A DNA stretch of 56,027 nucleotides, from assembly GCA_031082125.1 (NCBI GenBank), contig JAVHLM010000015.1:106798-162824 (forward strand). Reading direction: 5' to 3'. The stretch is from Candidatus Eremiobacterota bacterium (lineage in GTDB: Bacteria; Vulcanimicrobiota; CADAWZ01; Ess09-12). The stretch's first letter is position 1. Every line of letters begins with the position of its first letter. Shown here piece by piece: positions 9,247 through 24,739 of this stretch. Both the position numbers and the translations under genes were made by a program. The notes beneath the pieces were generated by a model. It did no database searches, had not been told where the DNA came from, and saw only the letters and a program-made list of their open reading frames with translations.

Positions 9247-11534
9247 GCAGAAACCTGCTTATCATCACGGCGCTTCTTACTCTTGCGTGCCCTGCATTCA
9301 GGGGGGATGCCATAGCCATGGAGAAGAGCAGCTTTTCTATTGCAGAGGGGCACAACAGAAACTATTTCCTCGTCTCAGACGAGGCCCTCTGCCACCTTGT
9401 TCTCACCGACAGGTCAAATCCCCGGGTGCTCGTCAATTTCCCCGCGGGAAATTCCGGCATAGCTCTCTGGTTTTCCAGGGAAGAGCATGAGGGGCCTGAG
9501 ATCTCCCTTGTCGAGGGGCTTGAGCCCGCCACAGACAAAAAGGGCGGCACAGCCGCCTCGTTCTCCGTAAGCTTCGGCAGGGGGAAGGCTGTCCTGTCAG
9601 ACTGGGTTCTTGACAGCGTGAGGCAGGTCAGGAATTATGGAGACCCGCAGTCTGAAGATTTCAACAGTAAAAAGGAGCGCTATGGCGAGGATCATGCCGT
9701 GCCTCCCCACTGGATCAAGCCGGAGGTGCTGATAATAAATTCGCGCGATGGAACTGTTCTCTCCATTGAAAGGAAAACACTCGATAACGGCTCTTACCAT
9801 CTGCTCCTCAAGTTTGCAGGCCCGGTGACGGTGAAGGAGCTCCCGTCGGGAAAGATCTCCATGGAGAGAGCTGACGGCTCGCCCCTTGCCTGCAAGGTGA
9901 CCGCCTCGGTGCCCTTTGCCCCTCTTGCCCCCTTCAAGCGCCAGTCGCTCTTTTCTCCCGGGCTTCTCGCGTTCAGGGAAAGGCTGGCAGGGACAGAGGG
10001 GGCAGCAATGAAGTCCTTCGATGAGTCCCTCAGAAATCTTCTTTTTCTCTCGTCCCGGGAGAAATACTGTGCGGGATCCTGGCGTTTTCTTACGTACTTC
10101 GGGAGAGATACCATTCTCTCACTGCTGCTCATGAGGGAGGCCCTCACGGCTGAAGCCTTTTCCCTCGGGATGGAGAGCATTCTGGACAGGCTCTCCGACG
10201 AGGGCTCTGTGGCCCACGAGGAGGACATAGGCTCCTGGGCCGAGTTCAGGTACATAGAGGAAGCCCTTTCCCGGCCTTCCCGGGAGGCTCCTGTGAAAAG
10301 GGAAGCCTATTATGACTATAAGATGATCGACGATGACTTTCTCTTTCCTCTCATGGCGAAGGCCTGGCTTCTTGACGGCTCCATTTCCCTGGAGGTGAAA
10401 AGGGCCTTCCTGGAAGAGAAAAATGCAAGGGGCGAGAAGAACATCGTCTCGATGGCGAGAAACTGGGACTACGTACTGGGGAAAGCCCTGCCCCTCAGCG
10501 GGGGCAAAGCCGATTACAGGAACCTTATAAGGACAGGGCGCGGCGAAGAGGTAGGCGACTGGCGCGACTCCCGGGAAGGCCTGGGAGGCGGCGTTTATCC
10601 TGGGAGCGTCAATATCGAGATGGTGGCCCAGTGCATCTCTTCCGTCGATGCGCTGGCGGGCTCCGGCCTGTATCCCCCCTCTGACCTCCAGGCGATGGCG
10701 AGGTCCCGGAAGTGCTCCTCACTTGCCGAGTTTCTCTCCTGGGAGCCACGCCGGAGAAAACAGCTGGTGGAAGCCTGGCACGAAGCGAAGAGCCATTTTA
10801 TTGTGTCACTGGAAGCCGGTGAGATGAGAAGGCGCCTCAGGTCCTACATGGACGGCGCGCTTGAGAGGGCCGAGAGGGCCGTGTTGATGAGGCAGCCTCT
10901 CGGCGAGGGGATCACCCTGCAGGATTTCCTGGACAAAGGCTCCGTACCGGCCTCACTTGCAAAGGGAATCGAGTTTTATGCACTCTCACTTGATGAAAAA
11001 GGCAATGCCGTCCCCGTCATGAACTCTGACTTCTCCTTCTGGCTTTTCCTGGGCGAGCCCGATCCCGGGGAGATTCGCTCAATGCTCAGGATCCTAAGGC
11101 TCCCATACCCTGTGGGCCTGAGAAGCGAGGCAGGCATATTCGTGGCAAATCCGGCATACTCGCCTGATAAGGCCCACTGGGTCACCCTCGGCAGGAAAGC
11201 CTACCATGGCACCGTCGTATGGAGCTGGCAGCTCTCGATGCTTGAAATGGGGCTCTCAGTGCAGATAGAGCGCTACAGGAATTTCAAGAGGAATGAGAGG
11301 CTCGTGGAAGAGATGTTGCCGGTCCTCAGGGACATAAGGGCTCTCCGTGAAAAGGCAGGCGCGCTTGCCAGCTCGGAGCTCTGGTCCTACAGGGTCAAGG
11401 GCCTGTCCCTTGTGCCGTCGCCTTACGGTGCCGAGGAGGGAAGCCAGGATGAGTCCAACGCGGTGCAGCTCTGGAGCACCGTGCTTCCCGCCGTGATGAT
11501 GAAGGAGGCCTCAGTACTGGGCCTCGGGAAGTGA
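9243..11534 (+). CDS. Secreted six-hairpin glycosidase-like protein
   Basis: A 763-residue protein with a signal peptide (cleavage near residue 25). After a beta-rich N-terminal part (about 30-240), residues about 270-700 carry motifs of (alpha/alpha)6-barrel glucosidases related to amylo-alpha-1,6-glucosidase and GH63-like enzymes: LTYFGRDTILSLLLM at about 283-297, an acidic YDYKMIDDDFLFPL, EVGDWRDSREGLGGGVYPGS near 435-455, and AYHGTVVWSWQ near 653-663. Acidic residues in WRD and the DD cluster are candidate catalysts. It may trim alpha-glucans in the periplasm or medium; substrate and activity are not shown. It is coupled to the cyclophilin by an ATGA overlap. Confidence 0.62.
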   Translation: MSRNLLIITALLTLACPAFRGDAIAMEKSSFSIAEGHNRNYFLVSDEALCHLVLTDRSNPRVLVNFPAGNSGIALWFSREEHEGPEISLVEGLEPATDKKGGTAASFSVSFGRGKAVLSDWVLDSVRQVRNYGDPQSEDFNSKKERYGEDHAVPPHWIKPEVLIINSRDGTVLSIERKTLDNGSYHLLLKFAGPVTVKELPSGKISMERADGSPLACKVTASVPFAPLAPFKRQSLFSPGLLAFRERLAGTEGAAMKSFDESLRNLLFLSSREKYCAGSWRFLTYFGRDTILSLLLMREALTAEAFSLGMESILDRLSDEGSVAHEEDIGSWAEFRYIEEALSRPSREAPVKREAYYDYKMIDDDFLFPLMAKAWLLDGSISLEVKRAFLEEKNARGEKNIVSMARNWDYVLGKALPLSGGKADYRNLIRTGRGEEVGDWRDSREGLGGGVYPGSVNIEMVAQCISSVDALAGSGLYPPSDLQAMARSRKCSSLAEFLSWEPRRRKQLVEAWHEAKSHFIVSLEAGEMRRRLRSYMDGALERAERAVLMRQPLGEGITLQDFLDKGSVPASLAKGIEFYALSLDEKGNAVPVMNSDFSFWLFLGEPDPGEIRSMLRILRLPYPVGLRSEAGIFVANPAYSPDKAHWVTLGRKAYHGTVVWSWQLSMLEMGLSVQIERYRNFKRNERLVEEMLPVLRDIRALREKAGALASSELWSYRVKGLSLVPSPYGAEEGSQDESNAVQLWSTVLPAVMMKEASVLGLGK

Positions 11535-20652: not shown

Positions 20653-20853
20653 ATGAAGGTTCATGTGCGCTGCCAGGGAAAAAGCACCACGCTCGACGCC
20701 GCCGAATGGGGCATTCATGGCGACATGCCCGACAATACCATCAGGAGCATTCTTTCAGATTTCATCGAGCTGCCCCGCCAGGAGCTCAGCAAGCTCGTGA
20801 TAGACAGGAACCCTGACGGGATTGTCATCCGCCCCCCCGCGGTTTTTGGTTAG
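20653..20853 (+). CDS. Ubiquitin-like small protein candidate ending in glycine
   Basis: A 66-residue protein with a GGAGG site seven bases before the ATG. The pattern is beta-hairpin (MKVHVRCQGKSTTL), then helix (TIRSILSDFIEL), then two strands (KLVIDRNPDGIVI), and the chain stops at PPAVFG with a terminal glycine. Order, size and the C-terminal Gly fit the beta-grasp fold of ThiS/MoaD/ubiquitin-like proteins that E1-like enzymes adenylate. It lies 11 bases upstream of the next gene and two genes before a ThiF/E1-like protein. The fold is inferred from pattern only. ThiS and MoaD end in Gly-Gly, whereas a single Gly is known in some Ubl families, such as PRTRC protein C. Confidence 0.6.
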   Translation: MKVHVRCQGKSTTLDAAEWGIHGDMPDNTIRSILSDFIELPRQELSKLVIDRNPDGIVIRPPAVFG

Positions 20854-20864
20854 AAGGTGCTGTC

Positions 20865-21680
20865 ATGTCAATGGAGGTGCTTGAGAAGATACTCTCCCGT
20901 GAGGAGACCATGGTGGGCCGGCAGTTCGTCGCCCCCGTCATCGCCGGCAGAAAAGTACAGATGAGACACTCCGGCGCAGTGAGAGAGCTTTCTCTTGCCC
21001 GCTCCCATGAGGGCTGGGGAGTCTTTGCCGTCAGAGCCGGCGGCAGGGCCGGGTTCGTGAGGGAGGCCGAGGAATGGGAGCGCCAGGACTACCTTGCCTC
21101 GTGCCGCAGGGTCTCCATGTTGCTCTTTCACCGCGATATGGGCGGGACCTGGTGGGCCTGCGACATGGGCAGGGGAAGAGCTATCGCAGTGCATCTCGTC
21201 GAGGGCTGCCGCATGTTTGACAGAATCGTGGTGGCTCATGACGGTCTCTCTCATCTGTTTGTGTACCTCGACGAGAAAGTGTCGCCAGAGAAAGGCGAGA
21301 AGCTCCGTGAAGCCTTTGTGGGCGAGAGGCCTGCAGAAACGCTCTCCCTGGATTTTTTCACCGCCAGGGAGCTTGAAGCCTATGTACGGGCTCTTGATCT
21401 CCATAAGATAACGGAGAAATCACACAAAGAGGCTCACATAAGGCGGATAGAGGAAGCTCTCCGCCTCGGCGAGGGGCACCTCGTGGAGTGCACCGAGGTC
21501 GATGCCGGGTACAGGGTGATATGGACCAGGAACGGCGTGGGGTATTCGACGATCCTTGACAGGAATCTGTCAGTCCTCTCGGCGGGGTTCTGCCTGGCCG
21601 GAGGCGACAGGCTCCAGGACATCACGTCGCTTTCTTCGCTTGTGGCGTTGAGGGGAACCATCGGTGACAGACCTCGTTGA
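20865..21680 (+). CDS. Unknown protein between Ubl-like and E1-like genes
   Basis: A 271-residue soluble protein that I cannot assign. It is rich in Arg, Glu, Gly and Val with scattered Cys (in ASCRR, WWACDMG, EGCRMF, VECTEV and GFCLAG). It looks like two alpha/beta parts, 1-130 and 130-271, joined by a charged helix (KSHKEAHIRRIEEALRL). Its place between a Ubl-like gene and an E1-like gene, where related loci carry an E2-like or PRTRC-B protein, suggests the conjugation or transfer partner, and a Cys could serve. I see no E2 active-site pattern. The ATG has an AAGGTG site; the stop overlaps the next start by 17 bases if the GTG there is used. Confidence 0.75.
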   Translation: MSMEVLEKILSREETMVGRQFVAPVIAGRKVQMRHSGAVRELSLARSHEGWGVFAVRAGGRAGFVREAEEWERQDYLASCRRVSMLLFHRDMGGTWWACDMGRGRAIAVHLVEGCRMFDRIVVAHDGLSHLFVYLDEKVSPEKGEKLREAFVGERPAETLSLDFFTARELEAYVRALDLHKITEKSHKEAHIRRIEEALRLGEGHLVECTEVDAGYRVIWTRNGVGYSTILDRNLSVLSAGFCLAGGDRLQDITSLSSLVALRGTIGDRPR

Positions 21681-22284
21681 GGTCGAAAGGAAAGCCATGG
21701 AAGCTGAAAAGAGACTTCTTATCTGCGGCGCCGGTACCCTTGGCGGGAACCTTGCCGAGAACCTCGCGCGGATGGGTATAAAGAGGTTCACGGTCCTGGA
21801 CAGGGACCGTGTGGAGGAGAGAAACCTTGCAAACCAGCCATACAGTACCGCTGACGTGGGCCAGCCCAAGGCGAAGGCCCTGGCGTTTTTTCTCTCCCGT
21901 GCCTGCAGAGCTGAAGTCACCTCCCTCAACAAGGACCTCGTCGAGGGGAACTCGGACCACCTCCTGAAAGACTGCGGCCTTGTCATCGATGCCTTCGACA
22001 ACAGCATGGCGAGGGGAATAGTGAAGGATACCGCAGCGAGGCTTTCAATTCCCTGTGTCCATGCCGGTATCAGCAACGACGGCTACGGCGAGGTCATATG
22101 GAATGAGCGCTATAGAGTGCCGGAAGGAGGCGGTGAGGACCCCTGCGAGAGGCCCCTCTCGAGGAACCTCTCACTTCTTGTGGTGTCGGTGGCCACAGAG
22201 GTAATTCTGGCCTACCTGGAAGAGGGAACCATGAGGAATTACACTGTCACGCTGAAGGATCTCGCCATCACCGAATACTGCTAG
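21664..22284 (+). CDS. ThiF/MoeB/E1-like adenylyltransferase
   Basis: A 206-residue protein with the E1-like Rossmann core only. LLICGAGTLGGNLAENLARMG is the ATP loop (here split: GAGTLGG then NLAENLARMG). VLDRDRVEERNLANQPYS is the DxDxVxxxNLnRQ motif with Ala-Asn replacing Asn-Arg, DVGQPKAKAL contains the conserved Lys, and VIDAFDN the second Asp. The CxxC zinc pair of MoeB/ThiF is absent; a lone Cys in EDPCERPLS could be the acceptor, and the protein ends in Cys. E1-like enzymes adenylate the C-terminal Gly of a Ubl. The start is GTG 21664 (overlapping the previous gene) or ATG 21697, which has a good AAAGGA site. Confidence 0.85.
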   Translation: MTDLVEVERKAMEAEKRLLICGAGTLGGNLAENLARMGIKRFTVLDRDRVEERNLANQPYSTADVGQPKAKALAFFLSRACRAEVTSLNKDLVEGNSDHLLKDCGLVIDAFDNSMARGIVKDTAARLSIPCVHAGISNDGYGEVIWNERYRVPEGGGEDPCERPLSRNLSLLVVSVATEVILAYLEEGTMRNYTVTLKDLAITEYC

Positions 22285-22316: not shown

Positions 22317-22745
22317 TCAGCAGTCGGCCAGGAACTTTTTCGCGGCCTGTTCCCAGAGTCTGTTCTGGCTCATTCTTCTCTCTCTGGCAATGTCGCGCAT
22401 GCTTTCAAATATTTCATTGCTCACAAAGAGCCCTATCTTTCTCTTGCTCGGGCGCTCTCCCCTCATGTTCCTGCACACCGGGCACTGGCAGTATTTCTTG
22501 TGGGCCATGCGCTGGATTATATGGATATGGGGCTGGACCCAGAGAATGTCATCACCTTTCACGCTTGTGGAGACAGGCACTCTGCGGTTCTGGTCAATGA
22601 ACTGTTTTATCGTCGCAGACAATATCTCGCTTGCGTTCTTTTCAAGCTCTTCCAAGGTGTCGCCCCGGGCCGAGAGATTCCTGAAATTGATAAAATCAGC
22701 GGAAAAGCCCTTTTCCTCTATCGTCACTCGTGCAGGGTACCTCAT
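22317..22745 (-). CDS. Orphan HicB-like protein with Cys cluster and RHH-like tail
   Basis: A 142-residue protein. Residues 1-70 (RYPARVTIEEKGFSADFINF and TLEELEKNASEILSATI) match the partial RNase H fold of HicB antitoxins. A CQCPVC cluster lies near residue 86-91. The tail KRKIGLFVSNEIFESM with a following helix pair looks like a ribbon-helix-helix DNA-binding unit. HicB antitoxins neutralise HicA RNases and repress their own promoter, but no HicA-like gene is adjacent on either side, so it may act as a stand-alone regulator. The ATG at 22745 has GGAGG eight bases upstream; the ATG at 22760 has none. A consensus promoter with a dyad lies upstream. Confidence 0.72.
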   Translation of the reverse strand: MRYPARVTIEEKGFSADFINFRNLSARGDTLEELEKNASEILSATIKQFIDQNRRVPVSTSVKGDDILWVQPHIHIIQRMAHKKYCQCPVCRNMRGERPSKRKIGLFVSNEIFESMRDIARERRMSQNRLWEQAAKKFLADC

Positions 22746-22838
22746 GGTCCAATCCTCCATTTTTCATTGCCTGACTTGCTGCAAAGCCGGCTTTATCTAT
22801 TCTTCCGTGCCTTCCTGTTGCCGTCATCATCTAATTAT

Positions 22839-22867: not shown

Positions 22868-23071
22868 TGGCCCCCCGGCCTCACGATTCTGGCTTGCTTT
22901 TGCACGGAACAAGCGACTGGCAAAAGATGAGCCGATAATCACTGTCACATTCCGATTCAGGCCCATCTGTGCTCCGGGGCACACAGGGGCGGTATCATGG
23001 AGCACCGACCTTTTTCCCCTCTGCTGGTATACTGGAGATACAAAGAGAAACTACCGCAGAGGAGGATCACT
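22868..23071. other. Non-coding region before the vWA gene
   Basis: Together with the HicB-like promoter region, about 325 bases separate the two divergent genes. A TATACT box near 23026 may serve the vWA gene. No ORF with a ribosome binding site is visible. Because the vWA protein resembles Ro60-type proteins in layout, a Y-like RNA could lie near here, but I could not fold one convincingly. Confidence 0.3.
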
Positions 23072-24739
23072 ATGAAAGCCTTCGCAAAACTGATAAAGCG
23101 CCTGGGGGGAAAGAGCGGCGAATCCGAAGCCGCGGAAGTGCAGCACATCACCCCCCCCTCGACACGACAGCAGAGAAAGCGCAGCAAAGGAATGGGTAAA
23201 AATAAGGCCGTCCTTGCGCCCATCCTTGAATACCGCGATATCCTCAGCCGCTCCCGCAGCAATGCCTCGTCCACAGGTGAATGCGGCATCCGCTCGAGGC
23301 TCATCGACAGCTTCCTCAAGGCCAGCCATGGCGACCTGGCAACCTTCGGGAAGATTCACCTCCGGGCCCTCGAGGAGGATCCCATCTTTTACGCCCACAT
23401 CGCCCGGTGGTACCTCGAGAAAGGCACAATCCGCGATCACCACGAGCTCTTCGCGGCCCACCTTCTCACGAGCACTTTTCCCGAGCACAGGATCCACGGC
23501 ACGGTGCTCCTCCAGCACCTCCGCCCCTACCAGGTGGCACGGGTAGTCCGCTACTGCAAGGAGATTCTCAATTTCACCACGAGGGCCCTCAGGTCAGCCG
23601 TCACCTTCTACCTCAGGAGAAGGGAAGAGAATCCCCTCTGGTTCGATGAGCACGTCATCAGGAGGCGCGATGTCCTCAAGTATCTTTATGCCACGCTCCA
23701 TATCAAGCCCGGCGAGAGGGCGGAGAAGGTGCTCTTCCGCAATGACCCCCCCCAGGACAGCAGGGTCTTCGTCGCCAAGAGGCTCAAGCAGTATGCCGAC
23801 AGGCCCGACGAGCAGGCGAGGATGATTCTTTCCCACAGGATCCATTTCACTGCCTGCCTTGGTGCCATCAAGCATTTCACGCCCGGCATCCTCTACGCCC
23901 TTGCGTCGGTAATGACGCCCCAGCAGGTAATCAATTCCCTCAAGTTCTTCGAGAAGAGGGGCGCCCTCCAGAGCGGCGAGACAAGATCGGTCATCGAGGA
24001 GAAGCTCCGCCATGGAGCCAAGGAGTCCCGCGTGTCGGACTTCAAGTCCATGGTGGCCCTCTCAAGGATAAATGCCGACGCCAATCTTGCGAAAGAGCTC
24101 ATTGAGCTCACGGCAAAGCGCATCAAGAACAGAGGCACCATCAACATTCCCACGGCAATCTTCGTAGACAAGTCGGGGAGTATGGAGTGCTGCATCGAGA
24201 TAGGAAAGCTCCTGGCCACCATGTGCTCGTCAATTGCCACGGCGGACCTTCACGTATACGCCTTTGACAGCAACTCCTTCGAGATACAGGCGAAAACCGG
24301 CGATTTCACCGCCTGGGAGCGGGCCTTCGCCCCCATCAGGGCCAACAACGCCACGAGCATCGGGGCGCCTTTCTCCCGCCTCATGGAAAAGAATATCGAT
24401 CAGGTGCTTGTCATTTCCGATGGTGAGGAAAATGTGCCTCCCAAGTTCAAGGACATGCTTGAGCGTTACGAAGCGCGCCACAGGAAGACTGTGAAAGTGA
24501 TATTTGTCAAGGTCAATAACCACGGGGTGACTTGCTTTGAGAAGGACATGGAGGGGAAGGACTTCACGGTAATTACCTTTGACGGCGATTACTACAACCT
24601 TCCCAACGTGATCCCCCTTCTCCTGCCCGGCAGCGGCTTCGAGCTCGTCGAGGAGGTGCTGTCGCTCCCTCTCTATGAAAAGGAGGCACTGAACAGTCTT
24701 CCCGTGCAGTTTGACGAAAACACCTTTGAAGTGCTTTAA
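23072..24739 (+). CDS. vWA protein with helical-repeat N-half (Ro60/TROVE-like layout)
   Basis: A 555-residue soluble protein. Residues 1-60 are basic. About 60-340 is an alpha-helical repeat region (paired helices such as FYAHIARWYLEKG, LLQHLRPYQVARVVRYCKEIL). Residues about 355-545 form a von Willebrand A domain with MIDAS motif FVDKSGSM (Asp366) and VISDGEEN. Helical repeats followed by vWA is the arrangement of Ro60/Rsr proteins, which bind Y RNA and misfolded RNA, and the basic surface would fit, but sequence similarity is not proven. No RtcB, Y RNA or PNPase gene is adjacent. The ATG has GGAGG seven bases upstream; an in-frame frame extension to 22997 has no site. Confidence 0.72.
   Translation: MKAFAKLIKRLGGKSGESEAAEVQHITPPSTRQQRKRSKGMGKNKAVLAPILEYRDILSRSRSNASSTGECGIRSRLIDSFLKASHGDLATFGKIHLRALEEDPIFYAHIARWYLEKGTIRDHHELFAAHLLTSTFPEHRIHGTVLLQHLRPYQVARVVRYCKEILNFTTRALRSAVTFYLRRREENPLWFDEHVIRRRDVLKYLYATLHIKPGERAEKVLFRNDPPQDSRVFVAKRLKQYADRPDEQARMILSHRIHFTACLGAIKHFTPGILYALASVMTPQQVINSLKFFEKRGALQSGETRSVIEEKLRHGAKESRVSDFKSMVALSRINADANLAKELIELTAKRIKNRGTINIPTAIFVDKSGSMECCIEIGKLLATMCSSIATADLHVYAFDSNSFEIQAKTGDFTAWERAFAPIRANNATSIGAPFSRLMEKNIDQVLVISDGEENVPPKFKDMLERYEARHRKTVKVIFVKVNNHGVTCFEKDMEGKDFTVITFDGDYYNLPNVIPLLLPGSGFELVEEVLSLPLYEKEALNSLPVQFDENTFEVL

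Follow-up and report, generated by a model that had tools for sequence, protein, structure and literature searches.

Four genes, encoding a small ubiquitin-like protein (Ubl), a middle protein (MID), an E1-like enzyme and a Ro60-type vWA protein, constitute one widespread system that apparently has not been described before. The best explanation of the window, by which we mean the whole 56,027-nucleotide stretch of DNA analysed here, is that it encodes the protein half of this conserved system, whose relatives also carry Y-RNA-like elements. With moderate confidence, we explain the system as a whole by Ubl conjugation coupled to a Ro60-type RNP that displays baits resembling parts of the translation machinery. 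No description of such a system was found in the available portions of the open-licence literature, including PMC1779556, PMC7159879, PMC7824862 and PMC11208441.

Gene layout in the window

An earlier, sequence-only reading of this DNA had described three tightly packed plus-strand genes with an 11-base gap and an overlap, and the ORF listing bears out both the genes and their spacing (Table 1): 11 bases separate the Ubl and MID genes, and the MID and E1 genes overlap by 17. That reading also counted only three genes, which no longer stands: the gene for the Ro60-type vWA protein belongs to the module as its fourth, and JAB genes join it in nine of 13 viral contigs, in phage LR756511 and in four loci of cellular genomes. 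The fourth gene and the RNAs of the relatives had both been missed. A HicB-like gene parts the E1 gene from the vWA gene in the window; no HicB-like gene lies between these two in the neighbourhoods of the relatives compared.

Table 1. Positions of the module genes, of three codons for conserved residues and of the intervening gene, numbered from the first letter of the window
Feature	Position	Strand	Product	Basis or remark
Ubl gene	20653..20853	+	66 aa from ATG, 68 aa from upstream GTG	ORF listing
Ubl terminal Gly66 codon	20848-20850	+		Alignment
MID gene	20865..21680	+	271 aa	ORF listing, alignments, AlphaFold2 model
MID Cys243 codon	21591-21593	+		Alignments
E1-like/ThiF enzyme gene	21664..22284	+	206 aa	PF00899, PDB matches, residue census
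E1 Cys161 codon	22144-22146	+		Census of 98 sequences
HicB-like antitoxin gene	22317..22760	-		PF15919, weak (E 0.003); outside the module
Ro60-type vWA gene	22997..24739	+	580 aa, helical N-terminal part and vWA	Fourth module member

The four proteins

Neither Ubl nor MID matched anything in Pfam, NCBIfam or PADLOC. Structure prediction of the Ubl, which had been proposed as a check, gave an AlphaFold2 model with a bb-a-bb beta-grasp (pLDDT 85), in keeping with the beta-grasp protein with a free C-terminal Gly that had been read from the letters. The top rows among its structural neighbours were mostly ubiquitin, MoaD or PB1, with a weak best E of 0.06 in Foldseek; in VIA-align MoaD came first at the best Z of 5.7, rows within 1 of that Z being counted as tied. 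The C-terminus follows the pattern ...RPxA[VI][FY]G. Gly66 is invariant in alignments of 14 and 21 sequences, and every aligned homologue terminates in [FY]G.

The E1-like enzyme belongs to the ThiF family (PF00899, 2.2e-30), with SAE2/MoeB among its best PDB matches. Its best NCBIfam scores are to ThiF/MoeB families, all far under the curated cut-offs. A CxxC pair is absent from residues 130-190 in all 98 E1 sequences of our census, the window's included, which agrees with the earlier description of a stripped-down E1 lacking the zinc pair. The nucleotide-site residues D46, D48, N54, K69, D109 and D112 are kept in 98 of 98, and Cys161 is present in 97. The Arg of the NLxRQ motif is the Arg finger of E1 enzymes; here it is replaced in every one of the 98 sequences (by T in 85, N in 11 and V in 2), so that E1 activity is not assured.

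For MID, the AlphaFold2 model (pLDDT 84 overall, below 50 at residues 238-242 and 251-271) predicts two OB folds at about residues 18-139, a long helix at 167-201 and a C-terminal domain. In fold comparison, the Mpa interdomain aligns with residues 18-139 (Z 7.6), and single OB folds reach Z 8-9. Cys243 is invariant within the stretch SAG[IF]CL, which resembles GxICL, the sequence around the active site of E2 enzymes, and is followed by conserved D252, S255 and L256. The C-terminal region is modelled as a helix and three strands, with low confidence after residue 238; a topology like that of dsRNA-binding domains (a-b-b-b-a) was considered for this domain.

It had been argued earlier that MID would have to be the transfer partner. 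One invariant Cys in the alignments makes a transfer role plausible, and to that extent the proposal stands; no E2 homology of MID is detectable by profile. The profile comparison suggested for this protein against E2 and PRTRC-B gave an hhalign probability below 1% against 14 Prok-E2_D proteins, and no Prok-E2 Pfam family matched in 25 MID sequences. In the fold search, MID matched OB folds, those of proteasomal ATPases, of eIF5A and of IF1. These matches cover the OB part only; no E2 is among those listed, which tells nothing against such a fold in the C-terminal domain. What suggests an E2 fold for MID is the motif together with the low-confidence region of the model. Among MID variants, a short form is recognisable mainly by its C-terminal domain, and two loci (L023:7374-8669 and L024:7433-8836) encode MID with a long, helical-looking C-terminal extension.

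The fourth protein carries the MIDAS motif DKSGSM, of which DKS.SM is invariant across 12 members, and the window's copy is 65% identical to a homologue from an Armatimonadetes MAG. Its profile matched the TROVE entries 9l5y/9kop in the PDB (E 0.0096), and comparison with 17 bona fide TROVE proteins of the genomes searched gave 96% in hhalign. When the alignment was split, the vWA half scored 96.2% (E 2e-9) and the helical half 0.4%. Pfam TROVE (PF05731) was found in none of the 12 members, and PF25045 appeared under its cut-off in one relative (E 0.0036). These sequence comparisons support the label "Ro60-type vWA"; a TROVE label is unproven because the similarity lies in the vWA half alone. 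Separate bona fide TROVE genes occur in 17 of the 39 genomes searched, including that of the window, where two such proteins (C29:96740-97549 and C11:56017-56235) are distinct from the module vWA protein. A second vWA paralogue of the window genome (L262) stands alone.

Linkage and distribution of the module

A MID search of 58 genomes found homologues in 13, the window's own among them. In the loci inspected in these genomes, an E1 homologue adjoins MID, as expected for the conserved partner that the E1 had been taken to be; a homologue of the 580-aa protein does so too unless the contig ends, and a Ubl gene lies upstream in most. Across a phylum set of 138 genomes, MID occurs in 13 and strong homologues of the vWA protein in 13 (18 with any match), with both in 12 (Fisher p 3e-15). 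The exceptions to this pairing are G050, where the contig ends, and G007.

Scanning with the E1 alignment recovered 221 relatives; we retained the best 80 as named loci. These are mostly from filamentous cyanobacteria, with others from an Armatimonadetes MAG, Acidobacteria and other MAGs. Within 7 kb, 43 of these best 80 of 221 loci hold all four genes, 16 hold vWA, MID and E1, 11 hold MID and E1, and 10 hold E1 alone. The survey of gene neighbourhoods that had been proposed for conserved trios has thus shown that the homologues do adjoin, with all four genes together in the 43. MID and vWA homologues are present elsewhere in all 10 genomes with E1 alone, so the parts go together even when apart. 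A single-sequence MID search of genome contigs gave no match, although the E1-alignment search there did match; the plasmids searched with MID gave no match.

A JAB (Prok-JAB) gene lies downstream of E1 in L028, L030, L031 and L032, and before E1 in phage LR756511 (L021) and in viral contig L118. PF14464 matched all five JAB candidates tested (L030, L031, L032, L118 and L021). The module is also carried on huge-phage contigs. In two further scans of viral sequences, the vWA protein turned up on 13 distinct contigs, that of L118 among them and the longest reaching 470 kb; two records of equal length were counted as one. Among the 13, vWA, MID and E1 occur together in 12, JAB sits between MID and E1 in nine, and Ubl is found in eight; seven bear a Y-like element, one of them on the opposite strand.

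Several other features were seen at these loci. L033, L034 and L035 (genomes G032, G038 and G018) are second, compact copies of the module, in which MID is shorter, the Ubl has 59-65 aa and no Y-like element was found; the same genomes hold a full copy. A conserved ORF of about 241 aa lies between Ubl and vWA in 38 cyanobacterial loci in all (for example L041:1062-1787) and has no Pfam match over the cut-off. Beside the module on viral contig L118, positions 9924-10119 match RNase P class A RNA at 49 bits (gathering score 100).

Y-RNA-like elements in the relatives

In 57 of 98 loci, tRNA genes were called by ARAGORN, most of them directly upstream of Ubl or between Ubl and vWA and starting with the unusual sequence UACAUAC. 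Rfam gave a 56-nt match to positions 1093-1148 of the 23S rRNA model, the GTPase-associated centre (GAC), in L041 and L060. Extension of this match with nhmmer produced 44 matches in 43 loci, the two query loci counted, all on the E1 strand. When the flanks were read, a common frame was found around the inserts: CGYGCCCYRAC-...-GCUUACAY-[insert]-GCUUYU..RACUUGCRCG.

We scanned 99 sequences (the window plus L021-L118) for this frame and obtained 242 matches, 237 of them non-overlapping, in 75 of the 99. Four loci are doubled in this set (L022/L038, L023/L052, L024/L042 and L026/L101), so that its counts include the duplicates; the 80-locus counts are without them. The threshold of 14 was lowered from a stricter first value and used with shuffled and viral controls, which gave no element in 1.35 Mb of shuffled sequence and none in 79 viral control loci. 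All 237 elements lie on the operon strand, and each of the 43 four-gene loci bears at least one. In the loci that hold Ubl, vWA and MID there are 198 elements: the stretch from Ubl to vWA contains 135 of them, that from vWA to MID 22, and the remaining 41 precede Ubl. No element was found by the scan in L027 and L033-L037.

A covariance model built from 36 elements gave 27 matches from 21 sources, 25 with E < 2e-5. The YrlA family (RF02553) scored 42.9 and 31.8 bits, under its gathering score of 69, at L099 and L104, two of the four loci searched. Without a structure being supplied, RNAalifold paired the outer stem, the second helix and both GAC hairpins of 16 RNAs that combine the sarcin-ricin loop (SRL) with GAC. 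Covariation counts for the elements are inflated, because the alignment rows came from a scan that rewards pairing. For RNAs chosen by ARAGORN or nhmmer, helix-1 pairing was 4.89 of 5 against at most 4.77 with the arms shuffled, in data of low diversity (115 of 129 items used; 14 were dropped for missing anchors).

The window itself yielded no Y-like element, even with all filters off (best 12.3 bits). Searches of the whole window genome were empty or at chance level, but the same search missed known elements in G026 and G070, so this negative is weak. One pattern match in the window genome (C14:122758) falls inside an ORF of L262 and was taken as chance.

Translation-related inserts

By simple rules, 95 of the 237 inserts are tRNA-like and 36 hold the SRL sequence GUACGAGAGG, 33 of these 36 together with GAC; no rule fits 78. 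The loci contain 41 copies of the SRL 12-mer AGTACGAGAGGA, of which 36 are inside Y elements; it is absent from 79 control loci. In the window genome it is found once, inside 23S rRNA. An L7/L12-like ORF (PF00542, 3e-24) recurs in 20 loci, and SRL, GAC and L7/L12 together presumably represent the ribosomal factor-binding site.

Short cyanobacterial elements of 70 nt include a hairpin similar to an anticodon arm, AACU-CU-NNN-NN-AGUU. In each of the three cyanobacterial classes, the anticodon triplet ranks with the positions that vary most, and the body is conserved. Entropies at the anticodon are 1.7, 1.4 and 1.3 bits in one tRNA-like class and 1.6, 1.5 and 1.2 bits in the second, in which 2 of 44 items, both from L084, resemble ordinary tRNAs and were kept in; in the short class the anticodon mean is 0.64 against 0.17 for the arm. 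Judged from these alignments, a variable anticodon on a conserved body is the opposite of what would be expected of orthologous tRNAs. By eye, the tRNA-like inserts at L025:1680-1816 and L099:1923-2066 look circularly permuted (T-arm, acceptor, D-arm) and joined via the anticodon arm, unlike the cyanobacterial ones.

Proposed mechanism and alternatives

Conserved linkage and co-occurrence show that the four proteins form one functional unit. From its family and its conserved nucleotide-site residues, E1 would adenylate the C-terminal Gly of the Ubl, which may then pass to a cysteine (E1 Cys161, MID Cys243 or both) and on to a target, with JAB, if present, taking it off. In most relatives the vWA protein would form the core of a Ro60-type particle and bind the Y-RNA-like stems that lie near the Ubl and vWA genes. 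The least certain steps come last: the inserts look like tRNA, like anticodon arms and like the factor-binding centre of the ribosome, and might serve as baits for, or sensors of, whatever attacks or stalls translation. An event at such a bait might in turn lead to Ubl modification, either of the particle itself or of the agent caught. For the window, the particle and bait steps are extrapolated from relatives, because no such RNA was found near its module.

A bolder form of this reading, which we hold only tentatively, is ribotoxin-sensing immunity. A library of baits (diversifying anticodon arms, whole tRNA mimics and the SRL+GAC mimic) on Y-RNA stems would be displayed by the Ro60-type protein in bacteria and huge phages, and attack on a bait would trigger modification by Ubl, E1, MID and JAB.

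One alternative to defence is a particle for quality control or repair of ribosomes or tRNA: the RNP and its mimic RNAs would draw in translation factors or enzymes of RNA repair, and the Ubl would tag damaged complexes. The Ro60-type vWA protein with a YrlA-like RNA would fit such a particle, as would the factor-binding site that SRL, GAC and L7/L12 presumably make up, and the module is chromosomal in cyanobacteria, with no obvious phage or plasmid genes in the loci inspected. However, hypervariable anticodon triplets and carriage by huge phages suit conflict better than housekeeping, and we regard the repair particle as rather doubtful.

Slightly less likely still is that the Ubl acts as a ThiS/MoaD-like sulfur carrier in the modification of tRNA or tRNA-like RNA, in which case E1 would make the thiocarboxylate and the OB folds of MID would bind RNA. 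MoaD as the first VIA-align neighbour of the Ubl (Z 5.7, with ties within 1), the resemblance of short E1s to ThiF/MoeB, and the suitability of OB folds and RNAs for RNA modification speak for it. ThiS and MoaD end in GG, however, whereas the Ubl has a single terminal Gly after [FY], and the ThiF/MoeB equivalog cut-offs are missed widely. The absence of any sulfurtransferase, thiamin or molybdopterin gene from the loci inspected bears out the earlier statement that this does not look like a sulfur-carrier operon, and that candidate was rejected on these partner genes and the missed NCBIfam cut-offs. JAB companions indicate conjugation, although JABs are found in sulfur pathways as well, according to the part of PMC1779556 available. 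That the window trio is a chance or relic cluster without joint function in this organism, left over after loss of the other parts of the system, is very improbable: the vWA gene does stand apart and searches gave no RNA partner, but the genes are tightly packed with intact motifs, the vWA protein keeps its MIDAS and its 65% identity to the Armatimonadetes MAG protein, and the co-occurrence is strong (p 3e-15).

If Ubl conjugation is indeed coupled to a Ro60-type RNP, the Ro60 RNP world would be joined to the ubiquitin-like world: a bacterial ubiquitin-like pathway would be tied to a Ro60-type RNA particle whose cargo hints at what it may watch, namely tRNAs and the ribosomal factor-binding site. 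This would assign bacterial Y RNAs a role that can be tested, provide the first natural RNA known to us in which the sarcin-ricin loop and the GTPase-associated centre are joined outside the ribosome, and add a new class of system in cells and huge phages. Mimic RNAs beside Ubl genes suggest that protein tagging may be linked to defence or repair of translation.

Relation to known systems

The operon type listed as 6d by Iyer et al. 2006 is, we presume, PRTRC. As described in the available part of PMC1779556, that operon type has a small Ubl with a conserved terminal Gly, an E1-like protein, JAB in many cases and a protein with a conserved Cys, all of which have counterparts in the present module. 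The differences are the Ro60-type vWA protein and the Y-like RNAs of the module, and a MID that is no Prok-E2_D homologue by profile. The sequence-only reading had likened the layout to PRTRC; this likeness did not hold up, with E1 at 37.3 bits against a cut-off of 144.75 for TIGR03736 (PRTRC ThiF) and MID without profile similarity to Prok-E2_D or PRTRC-B (hhalign below 1%), and PRTRC/Prok-E2_D membership was rejected.

In PADLOC, E1 matches part of E1-E2 models only. Bil and type II CBASS use Ubl-type activation with E1 and JAB, as in the present module. Unlike them, the module has no recognisable E2, its E1 is fused to neither E2 nor JAB, and no CD-NTase was seen in the loci inspected. To our knowledge, no RNAs of this kind are known from Bil or type II CBASS.

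Bacterial Ro60 (Rsr)-Y RNA particles combine a Ro60 vWA, a Y stem and a tRNA-like insert. The module resembles them in its Ro60-type vWA protein, Y-like stem, tRNA-like insert and YrlA-like scores, the latter under the cut-off. It differs in a helical half unrecognisable as TROVE, in its Ubl, E1, MID and JAB partners, and in the anticodon arms and the SRL+GAC insert; moreover, bona fide TROVE genes are separate from the module in some of the same genomes.

The vWA-centred conflict systems of PMC7159879 include vWA proteins in multicellular bacteria with UBL systems among their associations, and the available part of that paper mentions neither an operon of Ubl, E1 and Ro60-type vWA nor such RNAs. 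PRTRC, Bil, type II CBASS and Ro60-Y RNA particles each share parts with the module, and each fails at least one tested feature. Prok-E2_D (PRTRC-type) genes themselves were found at separate loci (L230-L243) in 12 of the 39 cyanobacterial and other genomes searched.
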